Assembly (NCBI GenBank): GCA_020849665.1
Contig: JADLFX010000031.1
Span: forward strand, 23,556 to 87,555
DNA: 64,000 nt
Direction of reading: 5' to 3'
Source: Planctomycetota bacterium
Lineage (GTDB): Bacteria; Planctomycetota; UBA1135; UBA2386
Under the pieces are notes generated by a model, which searched no databases, was not told the DNA's origin, and was given only the letters and a program-made list of their open reading frames with translations. The position numbers and the translations under genes were made by a program. Of the stretch, positions 1,306 through 13,708 are shown piece after piece; positions within the stretch are counted from its first letter, which is position 1; each line of letters starts with the position of its first letter.

Positions 1306-2358
1306 ATGACCCTCGCGCTCTTCCTCCTGATCCTGGTGGTGCTGACCGCGCTCGCGTTCGACTTCATCAACGGCTTCCACGACTGCGCCAACGCGGTGGC
1401 CACGGTGGTGTCGACCGGGGTGCTGCCGATGCGCACGGCGATCCTGCTCGCCGCGGTGCTCAACTTCGTCGGCGCGCTCACCGGCACCGCCGTGGCGTCC
1501 ACGATCGGCAAGGACGTGGTGACCCACGCGTTCCTCGACCCCTCGGTGGCCGATGCGCACCGCCTCGCCCTGATGCAGGTGATGGTGCTCTCCGGCTTGG
1601 GCGGCGCGATCTTCTGGAACCTGTTCACCTGGTACTTCGGGATCCCCTCGTCGTCCTCGCACGCGCTGATCGGCGGCATCGCCGGCGCGGCGCTGGCCCG
1701 CGGCGGTGCCGAGGCGCTGCACGCCGAGGGGCTCGTCAAGATCGTCACCAGCCTGGTCGTGAGCCCGGTGGTGGGGTTCTTCGGCGGCTTCCTGACCATG
1801 CTGCTGGTCGTCTGGCTGTCCCGGCACAAGAAGCCCTACAAGCTCACCCGGCGCTTCCGGCGCCTGCAGTACCTCTCGGCCGGCTTCATGGCGTTCTCGC
1901 ACGGCAGCAACGACGCGCAGAAGACCATGGGCGTGATCGCGATGGCCCTGGTGGCCTACGGCGTGTTGGAGCCGCACGGCAGCAAGCTGCCGGTGCCGAC
2001 CTGGGTGATCCTGGCGTGCGCGATCGCGATGGGTCTCGGCACCGCCGCGGGCGGCATCCGCATCATCAAGACGATGGGCAAGAAGATCATCGACCTGCGC
2101 CCGCCGCAGGGCTTCGCCGCCGAGACCAGCGCCGCCCTGACCATCCTGGGGGCCTCGACGATCGGGGCCCCCGTCTCCACCACGCACGTGATCAGCACGG
2201 CCATCATGGGCGTGGGGGCGAGCCAGAGCCTCTCGTCGGTGCGCTGGGGGGTGACCGCGAAGATCGTGTGGGCGTGGATCCTGACCATCCCGATCAGCGC
2301 CGGCGTGGCCGCGATGATCTACCTCACGGCGCACGTGCTCATGGGCCCGGCGCTCTGA
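1306..2358 (+). CDS. pit: Low-affinity inorganic phosphate transporter, Pit family
   Basis: 350-residue polytopic inner-membrane protein of the PiT family (PF01384), which takes up inorganic phosphate, probably as a metal-phosphate complex, with protons or sodium. Both halves of the internal duplication show the family signature: FDFINGFHDCANAVAT at residues 18-33 and FSHGSNDAQKTMGV near residues 198-211. The loop FGIPSSSSHALIGGIAGAAL and its counterpart GAPVSTTHVISTAIMGVG are the paired re-entrant segments. It is shorter than E. coli PitA (about 500 residues) because the large central loop is reduced to about 30 residues, as in many bacterial Pit proteins. Translation probably follows directly on the DUF47 gene. 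Confidence 0.93.
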   Translation: MTLALFLLILVVLTALAFDFINGFHDCANAVATVVSTGVLPMRTAILLAAVLNFVGALTGTAVASTIGKDVVTHAFLDPSVADAHRLALMQVMVLSGLGGAIFWNLFTWYFGIPSSSSHALIGGIAGAALARGGAEALHAEGLVKIVTSLVVSPVVGFFGGFLTMLLVVWLSRHKKPYKLTRRFRRLQYLSAGFMAFSHGSNDAQKTMGVIAMALVAYGVLEPHGSKLPVPTWVILACAIAMGLGTAAGGIRIIKTMGKKIIDLRPPQGFAAETSAALTILGASTIGAPVSTTHVISTAIMGVGASQSLSSVRWGVTAKIVWAWILTIPISAGVAAMIYLTAHVLMGPAL

Positions 2359-2364
2359 GGCGCG

Positions 2365-2393
2365 GCGCCGCGGCCGGCCGCCCGCCGCGGCGC
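2365..2393. terminator. Bidirectional terminator-like hairpin
   Basis: GCGCCGCGG at 2365-2373 is perfectly complementary to CCGCGGCGC at 2385-2393 with an 11-base spacer. It lies between the converging stop codons of the phosphate transporter (2358) and the minus-strand gene ending at 2396. There is no T-tract, so it may act with Rho. Confidence 0.45.
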
Positions 2394-2395
2394 GT

Positions 2396-3457
2396 TCAGC
2401 GCGCCTTCGCCGCGCGCAGCGCCTCGGCGGCCAGCTCGCGCACGCGGCGCTCCAGGGCCGCCAGCTCGTCGCGGCGGGACTCGCGCCGCTGGAAGGCTTC
2501 GGGCTGGGTGCGGATCTGCTGGTCGACCTTGTCGAGCAGCGCGTCGCGGTCCTTGCTGCCGGCGAGGATCTTGCGCAGGGCCAGGGGGTCGTCCCCGCCC
2601 TGGCTCCACAGGAAGTGGAAGCGCGGCACCATCAGCGCGTACACGGGGTCCATCGCCGGCTCGGCGCGCAGGGCCGCGCCGGCCGCGGCCTCCAGCTGGC
2701 CGCGGTGGCGGCGGTGCAGGAAGGCCTGGCGCTTGATCTGTTCGTAGAGCCGGCTGCGCCTGGCGTTGGCGGGGATCGGCGAGCGGTACGAGCGGTCGTT
2801 GAGGATCAGCACCGCGAACGGGATCGCGTCCACGTCGGGCACGTCGAGCTGCTGGCCGCTGGCCCAGACCTCGTGCAGGGTGATGCCGTCGAACACCCTG
2901 GCGTCGAGGTCGGCATACAGGTGCGCGAAGTACGCGCCCAGTTTGCGTTGCGCCGGGTCCTGGTCGAGCGCGGCCAGGACGCGGGCCGCGGCGCGGTCGC
3001 TCCCGGGCAGGTAGCCGTGGCAGGCGTTGGCGAACCGCTCCTCCAGGCCCAGAGGATCGGCGCGGCGCACGATCGCCGCCTTGGCCCAGTCGTAGCGCAC
3101 CTGCCAGGCGAGATCCGGAAGGAACGCGAGGCTCGGCACCTTGGCACGCACGCGCGCGTGGCGCTCGTCGTCGGCGCGCAGGAGCGTGCGCGGCGGCGCC
3201 ACGTCCTTGGCCCAGACCGCGGGGTCGTGGATGGGGGCGGGCTCGGCCACGGCCCAGCCGGTCTCCGGCTTGCCGGCGAGGGCCCGGATGCGCTGCGCCG
3301 CGGGCAGCTCGAGCGCGGCGAGCCTCGCCTCCAGCTGGTCGACGAGTTGGGCCTGCACGTCGGCGGGCAGGCTGAGGAACTCGGCGAGCGCGACCGCGGG
3401 TGCGGGCGGAGGGTCCTGCGGCAGGGCCAGGGCGAGGGCGAGCAGGGCTGGAATCAC
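2396..3457 (-). CDS. Exported protein of unknown function
   Basis: 353 residues, starting at a GTG whose last two bases overlap the TGA stop of the upstream amidohydrolase (GTGA, 4-base overlap). That overlap fixes the start, though an unrelated frame stays open further upstream. The N-terminus VIPALLALALALPQDPPPAPA reads as a short signal peptide. The rest is mostly helical with charged C-terminal heptads (about residues 315-353) and no cysteines suggesting disulfides or metal sites. I recognise no family. Residues 130-240 contain several aromatic and histidine positions (for example ACHGYLPGSDRA and FAHLYADLDARVFDGITLHE) that could form a domain. Being translationally coupled, it may work with the D-aminoacylase-type enzyme in the cell envelope, but this is inference. 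Confidence 0.75.
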   Translation of the reverse strand: MIPALLALALALPQDPPPAPAVALAEFLSLPADVQAQLVDQLEARLAALELPAAQRIRALAGKPETGWAVAEPAPIHDPAVWAKDVAPPRTLLRADDERHARVRAKVPSLAFLPDLAWQVRYDWAKAAIVRRADPLGLEERFANACHGYLPGSDRAAARVLAALDQDPAQRKLGAYFAHLYADLDARVFDGITLHEVWASGQQLDVPDVDAIPFAVLILNDRSYRSPIPANARRSRLYEQIKRQAFLHRRHRGQLEAAAGAALRAEPAMDPVYALMVPRFHFLWSQGGDDPLALRKILAGSKDRDALLDKVDQQIRTQPEAFQRRESRRDELAALERRVRELAAEALRAAKAR

Positions 3458-5085
3458 CGGCCACCAGTCTGCGCGGCGTTGCGCCGCAGGACCATCCCCG
3501 GCAGGGCGTCCGTGTGCCTGCCCTGCTCCACGACCAGGACGCCGTTCACGACCACGTGCGGGATGCCCTCCGGAGCGCGCAGCGGCGCCTCGTACGTGGC
3601 GAGGTCGCGCACGGCGGCGGGGTCGAAGACCACGAGATCGGCGAACATGCCCGCGGCGATCCGGCCGCGGCCCTCGATGCCGAACGCCGCGCACGGCAAC
3701 GTGGTCATCCGCCGCACCGCCTCGGGCAGCGAGAGCACCTTCTGTTCGCGCACGTAGCGGCCGAGCACGCGGGGGTTGTTGCCGTTGCCGCGCGGATGCG
3801 GCCGGCCGCTGCCCTCGCCGCGGATGCCCGCGTCGGAGGCGATGGCCACGTACGGCTCGGCGAGGTAGGCCAGCAGGTCGGGTTCGGCCATGGTGTGGTA
3901 GACCATCCCGATGCGCCGGCCCTTCGCCGCGGCCGTGAGCCGCAGCACCAGCTCCGCCTGCGCATCCGGGTCCTTGCCGAGTCCGCGCAGCTCGGCGGCG
4001 GCGGCCACGGTCATTCCCTCCAGGTCGGGGTTGCCGGGCACCGTGGCGAGGTAGGCGTAGGAGAAGTCGCCGAAACCGACGCGCACCATGGTCTGGCGCA
4101 AGGCGGCGTGCATCTCCTTGCGGAATGCGGGATCGGCGTCGAGCCGCTCGGCGAACGCCTTCGGCCCGATCTCCAGCGCGGCTTCGGGGAAGAGCACCGA
4201 GAGGCCGGTGCTGCTCGCCGGGTAGGCGTAGACGTCGCCGGTCACGGCCTGCCCGGCGGCGCGCGCCGCGCGCAGGCGCTCGACCACCTCGCGGCTGCGT
4301 CCCCAGTTGGTCTTGCCGCTGTTCTTGAGGTGCGAGACGTGCACCGGGATGCCCGCCGCCTTGCCGATGGCCAGCGCCTCGTCGATCGCGGCGAGGATCG
4401 CGTCGTTCTCGCTGCGGATGTGGCTGGCGTAGACGCCGCCGGTCTCGGCGACCACCCTGGCCAGGGCCACGAGCTCGTCCTGGCGCGCGTAGCTGCCGGG
4501 GACGTAGATCAGTCCGGTCGAGAGGCCGAACGCGCCCGCGGCCATGCCGCCGCGCACCAGCTCCTGCATGCGGGCCAGCTCCTCGGGGCGCGGCGCGCGG
4601 CGCGCGTAGCGCAGGACCTGCTCGCGCACCGTGCCTGCGCCGATCAGCGAGCCGTAGTTCACCGCCACGCCCTTGGCCGCCACGGCGTCGAGGTGCTTCG
4701 CCAGGTCCGTGACCGATCCACCGCAATTGCCGGTGATCATCGTGGTCACGCCCATCGCCACGAAGTTGCGCGCGCGCGGCGCCTGCAGCACATCGCCATC
4801 GGCGTGCACGTGCACGTCGACGAAGCCGGGGGCCACGGCGAGGCCGTCGGCGCGCAGCACGATCCTGGCCGTGGCGCCGGCCAGCTCGCCCACGGCCGCG
4901 ATCCTCGCGCCGGACACGGCCACGTCCGCGCGGCGTGCCGGCGCGCCGCTGCCGTCCACCACCGATCCGCCGGCGATCAGGAGGTCGTAGGCGGGAGCCG
5001 GCCGCGAGTCCTGGGCCGGGGCGGAGGCGCAGGTGCAGAGCCACGCGAGGAGGATCCTGGCACGCATGTTGAAGGCGGAGTGCAT
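3454..5085 (-). CDS. Exported N-acyl-D-amino-acid deacylase (D-aminoacylase family)
   Basis: 543-residue amidohydrolase-superfamily enzyme that should cleave N-acyl-D-amino acids or a related cyclic/acyl amide. The TIM-barrel metal site is visible: HVHADGD (His92, His94), GVTTMITGNCGG (Cys121, the cysteine ligand typical of D-aminoacylases in place of carboxylated lysine), YASHIRSE, VHVSHLKNSG and IASDAGIRGEGS with the late catalytic aspartate. The C-terminal beta-sandwich returns with GRIAAGMFADLVVFDP. A signal peptide (RARILLAWLCTCASAPAQ) points to the periplasm, unlike cytoplasmic homologues. ATG codons at 5085 and 5067 are both possible; the second places the signal peptide directly at the start. 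The stop overlaps the start of the exported unknown protein. A role in recycling D-amino-acid-containing peptides is inference. Confidence 0.88.
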   Translation of the reverse strand: MHSAFNMRARILLAWLCTCASAPAQDSRPAPAYDLLIAGGSVVDGSGAPARRADVAVSGARIAAVGELAGATARIVLRADGLAVAPGFVDVHVHADGDVLQAPRARNFVAMGVTTMITGNCGGSVTDLAKHLDAVAAKGVAVNYGSLIGAGTVREQVLRYARRAPRPEELARMQELVRGGMAAGAFGLSTGLIYVPGSYARQDELVALARVVAETGGVYASHIRSENDAILAAIDEALAIGKAAGIPVHVSHLKNSGKTNWGRSREVVERLRAARAAGQAVTGDVYAYPASSTGLSVLFPEAALEIGPKAFAERLDADPAFRKEMHAALRQTMVRVGFGDFSYAYLATVPGNPDLEGMTVAAAAELRGLGKDPDAQAELVLRLTAAAKGRRIGMVYHTMAEPDLLAYLAEPYVAIASDAGIRGEGSGRPHPRGNGNNPRVLGRYVREQKVLSLPEAVRRMTTLPCAAFGIEGRGRIAAGMFADLVVFDPAAVRDLATYEAPLRAPEGIPHVVVNGVLVVEQGRHTDALPGMVLRRNAAQTGGR

Positions 5086-5212: not shown

Positions 5213-5280
5213 AAGGTTCTCCACGTAGAGGCCGCCGGGCAACGGTGCTCGTCGTCCTCGGGGGCGATGTGGAGAACCTT
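5213..5280. repeat. Perfect 12-bp inverted repeat with 44-base spacer
   Basis: AAGGTTCTCCAC at 5213-5224 is the exact reverse complement of GTGGAGAACCTT at 5269-5280. A CGTTCTTTTC run follows. It lies between two divergent genes, so terminating either of them is unlikely. It could be two operator half sites allowing DNA looping, or a hairpin in an unannotated transcript. The core GTGGAGAACC also occurs at 63710-63719 upstream of the ECF sigma factor gene. Confidence 0.55.
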
Positions 5281-5343: not shown

Positions 5344-6495
5344 ATGGCGCGCACCCTCCTCCTCCACCCCCTCGTGCTCGCCGGCGTCCTCGCCGCGCAG
5401 AAGCCCGAGACCGTGCAGACCCCAGGCATCGAATGGGCCAGGGACCTCGACGCCGCGCTGGCGGCGTCCCGCGCCGACGGCCGGCCGGTGATCGCGTACT
5501 TCACCTTCGAGACCTGACACTGGTGCAAGGTCCTGGAGCGCGAGGCGTTCCCGGACGCCACGGTCGTGGCACTGGCGCGGCGCGCGCACTGGGTGTGGGT
5601 GGATCGCGACCACACCCCGGCGCTCCCCCGACGATTCTCGGTCTCGGCGTATCCCTCGTTGCTCTTCCTCGGCACCGAGGGCGAGAACATCCACCGCTTC
5701 GCGGGCTTCCTCAACACCACCAGCTTCCTCGCGCCGTTCCGCGAGGGGTTCGAGCGGTACGACCGCTACCGCGCGGGCGCGGCCTACGACGCGCCGCCGC
5801 CGTGGCCGGAGGCTCCGGTCGCGGGCCGCACCACGCGGGTGCTGCAGGTCCCCGGCGCGGATGCGCTGCGTGGGATCGCCTGGCACCGCGGCGAGCTGCT
5901 GCTCGCGAGCCTCGGCGAGCTGATCGCGCTCGACGGCACCGGCAGGGAAGTGCGCCGCGTGCCGCTCCCGGACCGGCCCAATGCGTTGGCCAGCGATGGC
6001 GAGCGCCTCTACGGGCTCCACTACGGCTGGACCGCCGGCAGGCCGATCTACGAACTCGATCCGGCCACCGGCGCCGCGGTGCGCCAGATCGTCACGCGCG
6101 CGAACGCCGACAAGCAGGCGTTCTCCGCCACGGGGCTGGCCTGCCACGGCGGCCGCCTGCACGTGCTGACCGTCTCCGGAGCCATCCACGTCGTGGATCC
6201 GGCCAGCGGCGTGGTCGAGCGCACCGTGACCACGAGGCTGCGCTACGTCTCGGCCCTGGCGTTCGACGGCCGGAGCTACGTGGTGGGGGGGCGGGACAGC
6301 CTGAACCGCGTGGATCCGGGCACGGGCGAGGTCGTCGGCTGCGTGCCCCTGCTCGCACCGGTGCGCGGCATGACCTTCCACGCCGGCGCGCTCCACCTCT
6401 TCGAACAGGTGCAGATGGGGTTCGACCGCAACCACAGGCCCAAGCGGATCGCGCCAGACTCCACCCGGATCCACGTGGTGGAGTGGCAGCCCTGA
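5344..6495 (+). CDS. Selenoprotein: exported thioredoxin-fold protein (UxxC) with beta-propeller-like C-terminus
   Basis: 383 residues if the in-frame TGA at 5515-5517 is read as selenocysteine (U58). Residues 1-19 form a signal peptide (MARTLLLHPLVLAGVLAAQ). The thioredoxin domain spans about 30-130: PVIAYFTFET-U-HWCKVLEREAFPD has U exactly where DUF255/Thioredoxin_7 relatives have the first cysteine of CHWC, and the cis-proline loop SAYPSLLFLG is intact. Residues 150-383 consist of repeated strand patterns (LRGIAWHRGELLLAS, LYGLHYGWTAGRPIYELDPATG, IHVVDPASG, LNRVDPGTGEVV) like a PQQ/WD-type propeller. The frame after the TGA runs 325 codons with normal composition, so a decayed gene is unlikely. 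The reaction is unknown; a periplasmic thiol or peroxide redox role is inferred. A related UxxC gene follows 44 bases downstream. Confidence 0.82.
5515..5559 (+). promoter_or_regulatory. Selenocysteine codon and candidate bacterial SECIS region (first selenoprotein)
   Basis: TGA at 5515-5517 lies in frame. Two folds are possible downstream. A short stem pairs 5532-5534 with 5543-5545, with a G-first loop starting 17 bases after the TGA, and a bulged T at 5531 if 5530 pairs with 5546. The alternative, GGCGT at 5544-5548 with ACGCC at 5555-5559, is stronger and has a 6-base loop about 31 bases after the TGA. Bacterial SECIS elements have apical loops 16-37 bases downstream with a G in the first two loop positions; the first fold satisfies the G rule, the second the stability. 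Folded by eye only. Confidence 0.5.
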
Positions 6496-6539
6496 GGCCA
6501 AGGGTTGCCGTGGCCCGGGTCGGGCAGGATGCTGCCGGG

Positions 6540-7883
6540 ATGCGTCCCCGCGCACTGGCCGCCCTCGCGCTCCTCTCCGTCGGCCTGCCGCCCGCCGGCG
6601 ACACGCCGCCGCCCGGCCCGCCCTGGCAGCTCACCTATGCCGAGGCGCGGCAGCTCGCGCTGCGCAAGGGTCAGCCGGTGTTCGTGTACTTCACGAAGAC
6701 CTATTGACCCGCGTGCGTGCCCCTGGAGCAGCAGTTGCTGCCCGACCCCACCCTGAAGCCCTGGTACGACCGCGTGGTCTGGCTCTTCGTCACCCGCAAC
6801 TTCAAGGGTGACGGCGGCGACCTGGAGGCGCTGCGCACCCACGACCGGTTCGGCGTCTCGTCCTGGCCGCAGATGCTGGTGTTCGATCCCTCCGACGACC
6901 GGGTCCTCGTGGAGCCGCCGCGCGACCGCAAGGGCTTCGAGCGGGCGTTCGAGCAGGCCGTGGCCGCGCACCGCGGCAAGCCGGACGCCGGAGCGGAGCG
7001 CGCCGCCGCGGTGGTCGCGGAGGCCAAGGCGCTGCTGGGCAGGCAGAAGTTGGCCGCCGCGCGCGACCTGCTGGAGCCGGTCGCCCGCGAGGAGGACCGG
7101 GCGGGTGTGTGGCTGGAGGCGCGCGCGCTGATGAACTCGTGGGCCGGCGCGCCGGAGCCGTCCCTGCCGGCACTGCTCGAGGACCCCGATCCGCGCGTGG
7201 TGGCGATCGCGTTGGAACGGGCCGCGGCGCAGCCGCAGCTGGAAGCGAAGCTCCTGGCGCGCGCCGGGGCGCTGCTCGGCGACCCCGCCGCCGACCTCGT
7301 GGTGCGCATCCGTGCGCTGCGGCTCGTGGCGAAGGCCACGCCCGAGGCGGTCGTCGACCGCGCCGCGGAGCTGCTGAAGGTCGCCAACGATCCGTTCCGC
7401 TACGAGGTCCTCGACCTCCTGGCGCGCCACCCGCGCCCGGCGCTGGGCCCGGCCCTGGCGGTGCTCTTCCGCGACGCGGGGGAGGCGGTGCCGTCGCGGA
7501 ACCCGAACGTGCTGCGCATGCGGACCGCCGCCTGCCTGGCGGAGTCTGGCGGCACCGAGGCGATCGACGCGCTCGCGCCCCTCGTGCGCACCGCCGACTG
7601 GCGCAACGGCACCACCAAGGTCTCGCTCCAGGCCCTGGCCGGGATCGCGCGCCGCCTGCCCGCGGAGCGGGACCGGATCGCGGCCCTGCTCCTGGACGCG
7701 TTCCCCAGGCCGGTTCCCGCCGAGCCCGCCAACCAGGCGCGGGCCAGCCTGGCGCTCGCCGCCAGCGTGCGGGAGGCGCTCGCGGCCGCGCGGCCACAGG
7801 CGCCCCTGCCCGCCCTGCCCAAGGCGTGGGACGAGGCGGCGCGCACGCAGTGGCTCGCCGAGGTGCGCGCGGCGGCGCGGTGA
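6540..7883 (+). CDS. Selenoprotein: exported thioredoxin-fold protein (UxxC) with HEAT-like C-terminus
   Basis: 447 residues if TGA at 6705-6707 is selenocysteine (U56). Signal peptide at residues 1-20 (MRPRALAALALLSVGLPPAG). The thioredoxin-like domain covers about 30-150: PVFVYFTKTY-U-PACVPLEQQLLPD aligns residue for residue with the upstream gene (YFT, three residues, U, two residues, C, then LE), and the cis-proline loop SSWPQMLVFDP is present. Residues 160-447 are short helical repeats (for example LPALLEDPDPRVVAIALERA and LRMRTAACLAESGGTEAIDALAPL) of HEAT type, a protein-binding scaffold. The start ATG lies 44 bases after the preceding stop, so co-transcription is likely. The 392 codons after the TGA are intact. 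Its substrate is unknown; tandem duplication followed by different C-terminal fusions is inferred. Confidence 0.82.
6705..6741 (+). promoter_or_regulatory. Selenocysteine codon and well-formed candidate SECIS hairpin (second selenoprotein)
   Basis: TGA at 6705-6707. GCAGC at 6728-6732 pairs perfectly with GCTGC at 6737-6741 around the tetraloop AGTT, whose first base lies 25 bases after the TGA and whose second base is G. Both features fit the bacterial SECIS rule (loop 16-37 bases downstream, G in the first two loop positions). The stem can be extended with 6724-6726 against 6742-6744 if the A at 6727 bulges. Confidence 0.65.
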
Positions 7884-11926: not shown

Positions 11927-13708
11927 CTACCGCACGTCCGGCCTGCCCGGCGATTCCCCCGGGACGGCGGCCAGGTCGTCAGGCGCCGGAGCCGGTCCGG
12001 TTCCGGGCCGCACGGGCGATCCCATCGCAGCGCGAGGTTCGGGACCGCGGGCCAGCGGGGATCGCTGGTCCGCGCCCGCCGGAGTGCCGTGCCGGGCCAG
12101 CTCCGGCCGCGGTCCCGTCGGGATCGGCAGGCCGGGGTCGTACCGCAGCCCCTTGGGCTCGAGCACGAGGCCCTCGAGGTCGCGCAGCAGGTTCAGCCGC
12201 GCCACGGCGTGATCGATCAGTGCCCCGGTGAGCTGGAGCTGGGACTGCAGCAGCGACTCCTGCGCGTCGAGGAGGTCCAGGGCGGTGGAGCGGCCGGCGG
12301 CGTAGAGGTCGCGCGTGCTCTCCACGCGGCGCTCGGAGAGGATCAGCGCGCGGCTCTGGATCTCGTAGCTCGCCGCGGTCCGGCGGATGTTGCGCAGGGC
12401 CTCGCGCACCTCCTGCTTGATGGTGTCCTCGAGCTGTTCGCGCGAACGGATCGCCACGTCCATGTCGATCAGCGCGGCGCGGTAGGCGTTGCGCTGCGGC
12501 AGGCGGTCGATCGCCAGGTCGATCTGGAAGCCGGCCGACCAGTTCACCTTGCTCCAGTCGAAGCGGAACGCCTTGTCGCGATCGGTGGGCACGTCGGCGG
12601 CCGCGACCAGATCGAGGGACGACTCCAGCGCGTCCTCGGCGACCAGGATGCCGCGCCCGGCGTCCTCGACCTCGTCCACGACGTTGCGGTAGTCGAAGCG
12701 GCGCAGCAGCGCCAGCTCGATCGCCTTAGGCTCCTCCAGCGCGATCAGCGGGGCGCCATCGGCGCGCAGGTGCTCGAGCTCGCGGATGTCGAGCGTGAGC
12801 TGCGCATCGGTGGGCAGTCCCAGGAGCACGCGGAAGCGGTCCAGCGTGCTCTCCAGCTGGGCGCGTGCGGTGACCAGGCGGTCGTTGGCCGAGAGCTCGT
12901 CCTGGCGGGCGCGGTCCAGATCCACGCTGGTGCGACGCCCCGCCTCGGCCAGGGCCTCGGTCTGCTCGCGGTTCTGCCGCAGGTTGACGGCGTTGGCCTC
13001 CTCGTTGCGCAGGTTGTCCATCTGCTCGAGCACCCGGTAGTACTCGGTCACCACCCGCACGGCCTGCGTGGCGCGGAAGCGCTCGTAGTCGCGCACCTGG
13101 TAGATCACGTTGCGCTCGGCCTGGGTGAGCGGCTCGCGGGCCACGGCCTTGCCGGCACCGGCGAGCAGGGGCTGGGTGATCGAGAGCGAGAGCAGCGAGC
13201 TCGGGTCCCAGCCGTTGGCCCCGGACACCAGGTTCTTCAGCCAGTTGTTCACGAAGCCGACGACGATGTTGGCCCCGGACTCGGTGTTGCGGGAGGCGCG
13301 CAGCTGGTTGCGCAGGGAGAGCACGGCCTCGTCATCGCCGACGCCGGTGACCTCCTCGGTGCCGGTGAAGGACCAGCGGGTGCTGAAGTTCCACTCCTGC
13401 TGGGTGAGTGCCAGACCCACCAGATAGAGCTGTTCCTTCTGGCGCTGGAACTCGCGGCTGTTCTCCGCGGCGATGTCGAGGGCCTGGGCGATCGTGACCA
13501 CCATCGGCGTGCTGGCGGCCAGGATGCGCTTGCGCAGGGTGTCGACGGGCCGTTCCAGGCGTTCCACCCGGCTCTCCCCGGTCACGCTGCGGCTGACGTT
13601 CTCCAGGAGGCCGTAGACCTGCTGGTCGGCGTCGTCCTTGTAGTCGGAGGGCGAGCAGCCGAGGAGCAGGGCGGAAGCGGGGAGGGGGAGGAGCAGGCGG
13701 CGGAACAA
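11927..13708 (-). CDS. TolC-family outer-membrane efflux lipoprotein
   Basis: 593-residue outer-membrane efflux protein with two long helical repeats (PF02321) that trimerise into a channel-tunnel. The N-terminus FRRLLLPLPASALLLGC is a lipobox, as in OprM-type channels. Family marks are VVTIAQALDIAAENSREFQ at about residues 70-88 (start of repeat 1) and the internal pseudo-repeat around TEALAEAGRRTSVDLDRARQ and YAAGRSTALDLLDAQESLL, both with the conserved G-R-x-[ST]-x-x-D-[LV] turn. The start codon is TTG at 13708-13706, preceded by AGGA six bases away; no better start is present. It is the first gene of the four-gene minus-strand efflux operon. A Pro/Arg-rich tail of about 60 residues follows the last helix and is atypical. 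Confidence 0.9.
   Translation of the reverse strand: MFRRLLLPLPASALLLGCSPSDYKDDADQQVYGLLENVSRSVTGESRVERLERPVDTLRKRILAASTPMVVTIAQALDIAAENSREFQRQKEQLYLVGLALTQQEWNFSTRWSFTGTEEVTGVGDDEAVLSLRNQLRASRNTESGANIVVGFVNNWLKNLVSGANGWDPSSLLSLSITQPLLAGAGKAVAREPLTQAERNVIYQVRDYERFRATQAVRVVTEYYRVLEQMDNLRNEEANAVNLRQNREQTEALAEAGRRTSVDLDRARQDELSANDRLVTARAQLESTLDRFRVLLGLPTDAQLTLDIRELEHLRADGAPLIALEEPKAIELALLRRFDYRNVVDEVEDAGRGILVAEDALESSLDLVAAADVPTDRDKAFRFDWSKVNWSAGFQIDLAIDRLPQRNAYRAALIDMDVAIRSREQLEDTIKQEVREALRNIRRTAASYEIQSRALILSERRVESTRDLYAAGRSTALDLLDAQESLLQSQLQLTGALIDHAVARLNLLRDLEGLVLEPKGLRYDPGLPIPTGPRPELARHGTPAGADQRSPLARGPEPRAAMGSPVRPGTGPAPAPDDLAAVPGESPGRPDVR

Follow-up and report, generated by a model that had tools for sequence, protein, structure and literature searches.

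Two adjacent genes on contig JADLFX010000031.1 of the Planctomycetota bacterium genome GCA_020849665.1, here referred to as gene 1 and gene 2, each hold one in-frame TGA, and the question raised by this locus is whether these codons end translation or are read as selenocysteine (Sec, U). Both TGAs lie in the 64,000-nucleotide stretch that was analyzed (the window), at exactly the first-Cys position of a thioredoxin-fold CxxC motif, as an earlier note on this DNA had read directly from the sequence. We consider it highly likely that both genes, 44 bp apart, are read through UGA with Sec, the predicted products being exported thiol-disulfide oxidoreductases with UxxC, and both are very probably selenoproteins (coordinates in Table 1). 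The sequence basis for Sec is the position of the UGA, its conservation, the existence of Cys forms, compensatory changes in the gene-2 hairpin, and the presence of selA, selB, selD and tRNA-Sec in the genome.

Relatives were collected by alignment, a motif-pattern collection having proved too narrow (11 Sec and 7 Cys sites). TGA at exactly the gene-2 codon was found in 28 family members (window counted), and Cys in three. In a search of 154 genomes of the class, 74 matched gene 2 at E<=0.001, many via other thioredoxin-fold genes; at E<1e-23 there were ten genomes, source genome included, nine with one TGA and one (G141) with Cys. A sample of 392 genomes of the phylum contained 19 beyond the source genome that matched at E<1e-28, all 19 with one TGA, and selA was present in 18 of these, the exception (G353) being 77% complete. 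Class and phylum are ranks as set by the search tool, and the counts from both searches are lower bounds, few first-look candidates having been scored per genome (11 and 4). One genome (G180) had a short split gene-2 match without a stop. When named genome records were searched with the part of gene 2 after U, a query with no preference for U or C, TGA was recovered at 13/13 loci; these are metagenome-assembled genomes titled Planctomycetota, Planctomycetia or bacterium, and several duplicate sequences already counted. An earlier scan of the records with an alignment spanning U had returned no relative, its pattern demanding a Cys codon there. The protein database gave 29 rows for gene 2, of which 25 cover just 79-87% of it, as expected if the gene call starts past U, and three of these whose sequences were read (P0011, P0021 and P0035), as well as P0026, each start after the U position. 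Coverage of the query is 93-100% for the Cys forms P0018 and P0019. A search for plasmid carriage of gene 2 found no match among 72,556 records.

For gene 1, TGA occupies exactly the same codon in nine family members (window counted) and Cys in three. The eight relatives with TGA (L064, L065, L066, L177, L178, L180, L182 and L183) are all from genomes with selA (8/8), and the Cys forms are L179 and L181, from genomes with selA, and the database protein P0007. Relatives with TGA at the shared codon come from several families of the phylum, and the proline at the cis-Pro position (P104 in gene 1, P110 in gene 2) was invariant in the family alignments A3/A6. The gene-1 tree (12 rows, 9 Sec and 3 Cys) needs two Sec/Cys changes, of which well-supported branches force just one, and the gene-2 tree (30 rows, 27 Sec and 3 Cys) needs two, with both forced by well-supported branches. 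The two trees were rooted for drawing only, and the direction from Sec to Cys therefore rests on Sec as the majority state. Such a change was called rare in a 119-family selenoprotein catalogue (PMC13188914), and a 2006 survey counted 15 Sec-to-Cys events in four families. The searches further yielded 60 TGA rows (L029 among them a DsbD) and one Cys row from a third Thioredoxin_7 family, marked by the signature YFTRSY..U, of which the source genome carries a member (L104).

In bacteria, Sec is placed at a UGA by SelB, which carries Sec-tRNA and binds a selenocysteine insertion sequence (SECIS) hairpin. A published model of the bacterial SECIS has an apical loop of 3-9 nt that starts 16-37 nt past the UGA, with G in the first two positions of that loop, and an energy of at most -7.5 kcal/mol (PMC13188914). 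A hairpin that fits this model follows the TGA of both gene 1 (-16.6 kcal/mol) and gene 2 (-7.5 kcal/mol). The high GC content of the genes was allowed for by comparing hairpin counts with synonymous recodings drawn with the codon usage of window genes. The model was satisfied by 4/4 gene-1 Sec rows (1.2 expected), by 9/9 when one bulge was allowed and more relatives were added (2.9 expected), and by 51/60 Sec rows of the third family (18.0 expected). Among Cys rows, it was satisfied by 10/31 gene-1-like (6.8 expected), 4/6 gene-2-like (1.6 expected) and 1/1 third-family sequences (0.2 expected). The loop began 24-25 nt past the UGA in 27/29 gene-2-type Sec rows, one of the two exceptions being the DsbD-like row L056, versus 1/6 Cys rows, and the loop position was kept in at least 52/60 rows of the third family.

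Compensatory changes were evaluated in 23 of the 29 gene-2-type rows, leaving out L056 and five rows whose GGUCU loop sits in a different register. The 5-bp stem was paired in 95.7% of cells and had 11 double changes versus 2.6 in shuffles, which do not model the relatedness of the sequences; 0/500 shuffles reached 11. Its covariation score was 0.265 versus 0.086 in shuffles, with slid versions of the stem all <=0.095, and the count of pair types was not raised (4 versus 4.5 in shuffles). The pair that varies most (GC 11, AU 5, CG 5, other 2) lies between codon position 1, mostly of Glu, Lys or Gln codons, and codon position 3 of Leu. In the third family (58/60 rows, L029 and L149 left out), the stem was 97.0% paired and showed 36 double changes versus 6.8, again with 0/500 shuffles reaching the observed count.

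The source genome (5.24 Mb, 94.8% complete) encodes the Sec machinery. Searches of the genome recovered selA (482.5 bits), selB (325.9 bits) and selD (366.9 bits, cut-off 125), together with a tRNA-Sec with TCA anticodon (75.4 bits); a second match above the cut-off of the tRNA-Sec model is a tRNA-Ser according to ARAGORN, and there were no further ones. The earlier note had expected selA, selB, selC and selD elsewhere in the genome, and had named a lack of this machinery, or stops scattered through the relatives, as what would speak against Sec. All four genes are present, and scattered stops were not what the relatives showed, one of them (L066) having an extra TAG upstream of the TGA. The selD gene overlaps the end of the selA frame and itself has an in-frame TGA. 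A single TGA occurs in 5 of the genome's 15 Thioredoxin_7 places, always at the first position of UxxC, and 6 of 21 AhpC-TSA places have TGA. Taken together, the Thioredoxin_7 and AhpC-TSA family searches and the selA neighbourhood gave 11 candidate selenoprotein genes, in which 12 in-frame TGAs stand at redox positions, and this count is a lower bound for the genome. One of these genes, L106, is a candidate double selenoprotein judging from its two TGAs. At L104, two YFTRSY/YFTRSF-type genes stand in tandem: one has UGPC, and its partner reads CGAA, with a Cys but lacking the resolving one.

Table 1. Features of the gene pair in the window (window coordinates), followed by other candidate selenoprotein genes of the source genome.
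Feature	Position	Strand	Details
Gene 1	5344-6495	+	ATG 5344; stop TGA 6493-6495; 383 residues including U
In-frame TGA of gene 1	5515-5517	+	codon 58; YFTFET-U-HWC (UHWC); predicted selenocysteine
Gene 1 hydrophobic N-terminus, signal-peptide-like	5344-5406	+	judged by eye
SECIS-like hairpin, gene 1	5530-5556	+	apical loop GAG, 24 nt past UGA; -16.6 kcal/mol
Gene 2	6540-7883	+	ATG 6540; stop TGA 7881-7883; 447 residues including U
In-frame TGA of gene 2	6705-6707	+	codon 56; YFTKTY-U-PAC (UPAC); predicted selenocysteine
Gene 2 hydrophobic N-terminus, signal-peptide-like	6540-6602	+	judged by eye
SECIS-like hairpin, gene 2	6728-6741	+	5 bp core stem; loop AGUU, 25 nt past UGA
L104 (G000:C35)			candidate selenoprotein; UGPC; third Thioredoxin_7 family
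L105 (G000:C59)	2188-4812 (of C59)	-	DsbD with DsbD_N and DsbD_TM domains; in-frame TGA, UANC in thioredoxin domain
L106 (G000:C3)	TGAs at codons 199 and 339		WUGPC in AhpC/TSA-type domain; GPGUPWC in Thioredoxin_7 domain
L217			peroxiredoxin; TPGU
L218-L221			four TlpA-like genes (our own label); UGPC
selD			candidate selenoprotein; CSG-U-AAK

Three other readings of the two TGAs were weighed. As true stops, they would leave short leader peptides and downstream proteins that start at GTG 5566 and GTG 6717 and lack a thioredoxin active site. Gene callers treat them in this way: the open reading frame list has these starts, and the database proteins for the window, of 309 aa (P0004) and 388 aa (P0009), are gene calls beginning past the TGA, which bears out the earlier note's expectation that automatic annotation would split or shorten both genes. 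However, homology and coding signal cross the TGA. A whole-window scan of coding signal on either side of stop codons listed seven, with the TGAs of gene 1 and gene 2 ranking first and second and no CxxC-like motif in the context of the other five. Past the inner TGA there are 325 sense codons in gene 1, as previously stated, and 391 in gene 2, for which the earlier figure of 392 had counted the stop. True stops would not be expected to interrupt a thioredoxin fold at one and the same codon in 35 relatives (27 for gene 2 and 8 for gene 1), full-length Cys forms exist (P0007, P0018 and P0019), and the hairpin covaries, all of which make this reading very unlikely.

It is less probable still that the TGAs are decoded as some other residue, through a reassigned code or general read-through. 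The open frame agrees with such decoding, and nothing more does. Among 48 window frames chosen by a GC-by-position rule, 32 end in TGA, genes 1 and 2 included (27/39 among frames with third-position GC >0.85); TGA is therefore the usual stop here, as had been claimed, and a reassigned code was rejected. In addition, the in-frame TGAs found in the thiol proteins of this genome stand at Cys positions of redox motifs, and the genome has the Sec machinery. Decay of both genes into pseudogenes by a nonsense mutation, with which the single TGA in each and the extra TAG of L066 might agree, appears next to negligible. The identical codon is kept as TGA in relatives from several families, on which ground pseudogene status was rejected, the gene-2 rows collected have frames open from start to stop, and third-position GC remains coding-like past the TGA.

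Several observations nevertheless weigh against Sec in these genes. The hairpin of gene 2 lies just at the energy limit and is equalled by 37% of synonymous recodings, plain folding of window stretches gave z values of -0.2 to -2.5, and 14/29 gene-2-type Sec rows reach that limit, against 6.9 expected. So do 5/7 Cys homologues from the gene-2 and third families, and therefore energy alone cannot separate Sec from Cys, whereas loop position and covariation do; hairpin energy by itself was rejected as proof, since the limit is frequently reached by Cys homologues and by synonymous recodings, which are GC-rich. In the nine gene-1 sequences, RNAalifold chose another helix, at columns 42-57 further 3', which misfits the loop distance of the model and was not used, leaving the gene-1 hairpin without a shared register. 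The TAG of L066 lies 33 codons ahead of its TGA, and its start must therefore lie after the TAG. Cys relatives with searched genomes (G141, G434 and G490) do have selA, and Sec is therefore not required by every member. Finally, the source genome is a draft of 122 contigs. The earlier claim that both genes are translated with Sec is supported at the level of sequence by the Sec machinery, the SECIS-like hairpins and the three Cys forms in each family, and this is the reading carried forward here.

The role of the cis-Pro in the thioredoxin fold is well known, and both proteins combine this invariant residue with a CxxC-equivalent pair. Gene 1 scored 38.8 bits with Thioredoxin_7 and 39.1 bits with DsbH, and gene 2 scored 33.9 bits with Thioredoxin_7 (Pfam cut-offs 27). 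In the predicted structures, the thioredoxin-fold domain of gene 1 is fused to a beta-propeller and that of gene 2 to HEAT-like repeats (AlphaFold; for gene 2, predicted local distance difference test (pLDDT) 93.7, predicted template modelling score (pTM) 0.89), the latter assigned from a HEAT_2 match in the family and the repeat fold. The N-termini, judged by eye, suggest export of both products, and a reductase role is indicated by the fold together with UxxC and the conserved cis-Pro. Alternatively, the proteins could be selenoproteins that act chiefly through their propeller or HEAT-like domain, with the UxxC domain as its sensor or repair module, rather than general exported reductases. 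This we regard as unlikely, if worth keeping in mind: the thioredoxin part is well conserved with its redox pair and cis-Pro, and just 1/14 gene-1 members match the glutamine cyclotransferase Pfam model (PF05096), weakly (E 0.00056).

Foldseek with gene 2 gave no PDB match at E<=0.001 (best 1.5e-3), and NCBIfam gave no match above cut-off for either gene. The Trx7/PDZ selenoprotein family NF041199 (14.1 and 16.8 bits, cut-off 300) shares with them the Thioredoxin_7 domain and selenoprotein status, but is given in the catalogue with CxxU and a PDZ partner, unlike the UxxC of genes 1 and 2; NF045694 TsoB scored 34.4 bits with gene 1 against a cut-off of 805. The PF13098 thiol:disulfide interchange and HUIPC-motif thioredoxin-like selenoproteins (PMC13188914, Table 1) are likewise thioredoxin-fold UxxC proteins with UGA and a downstream SECIS, but are listed there with no propeller or HEAT fusion, and ours, for which Thioredoxin_7 and DsbH are the better Pfam matches, are set apart by description. 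Structures of the DsbD C-terminal domain and DsbH (1uc7, 2ju5; also 3f9u) have no HEAT or propeller partner judging by their titles, and gene 2 has U in place of their first Cys. The gene-1 propeller aligns in fold with bacterial and plant glutaminyl cyclases (3mbr, 3nok and 2iwa), at 18% identity.

In the proposed mechanism, SelB carrying Sec-tRNA would bind the hairpin past the UGA and put Sec at the UGA. The selenol of the UxxC pair would then attack disulfides, with the C-terminal propeller of gene 1 or HEAT-like domain of gene 2 perhaps positioning the substrate. The DsbD of the source genome (L105), whose own thioredoxin domain has UxxC, is a possible electron donor for exported selenoproteins and would supply electrons across the membrane; that it feeds the products of genes 1 and 2 is a guess from co-occurrence. 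With no fewer than 11 candidate selenoprotein genes, one of them a DsbD with UxxC, the genome could plausibly encode a selenol relay of exported proteins.

Genes 1 and 2 do not appear to be conserved together as a unit. Most genomes with a strong match to one gene had no strong match to the other, the scanned neighbours differed, and a conserved operon was unsupported, the relatives lying on different contigs in G279 and G240; the comparison rests on draft contigs. In G279 (locus L177), a gene-1 relative adjoins another thioredoxin-like frame with TGA (DC-U-PVD; near 3243-3299, - strand), and a tandem Sec pair may thus recur with another partner. In four other loci from four genomes (L071, L072, L073 and L091), a thioredoxin-fold protein with a normal CGPC or CPPC has an in-frame TGA 76, 77, 77 and 86 residues later. 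In the window, the genes flanking the pair are both on the - strand, an amidohydrolase upstream of gene 1 and a MacB/FtsX-type permease downstream of gene 2. A perfect 12-bp inverted repeat (5213-5224 and 5269-5280, 44 nt apart) lies a short way upstream of gene 1 and was matched in 4/216 loci searched, all four containing that window stretch itself. ARAGORN placed a tRNA-Arg at 11965-12058 within the coding frame of an outer-membrane efflux gene, which is probably spurious, and Rfam at gathering scores matched no family in the window.

UxxC thioredoxin-like selenoproteins are well known as a kind. The two predicted families described here, thioredoxin-propeller and thioredoxin-HEAT, are very probably selenoproteins on sequence grounds, and are absent from NCBIfam and from the 119-family catalogue as given in its Table 1 (PMC13188914). 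The word stem planctomycet is absent from the accessible text of that paper and of a 2022 review (PMC9312934). A 2016 paper described Sec machinery and selenoproteins in two members of the same phylum, Planctomycetes P1 and P2 of Porphyra (PMC4807772); the selenoproteins named in its accessible part are formate and formylmethanofuran dehydrogenases, unlike the thioredoxin-fold genes here, and its supplementary list might hold such genes.

Because gene callers truncate these proteins at the active site, two phylum-wide redox families are stored largely without their catalytic half. Their hairpins covary clearly and have an AGUU or GGU loop whose distance hardly varies, and they would make a training set for bacterial SECIS finding. 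We tentatively suggest, as a possibility short of a firm expectation, that a large part of the Planctomycetota may have rebuilt its exported thiol-disulfide network on Sec, with a Sec-DsbD passing electrons to many Sec thioredoxin-fold proteins including both families here. With selA matched in 145/154 genomes of the class (139 above cut-off) and 276/392 of the phylum sample (239 above cut-off), its wide occurrence makes this lineage a place to ask what maintains Sec in redox proteins that are exported.
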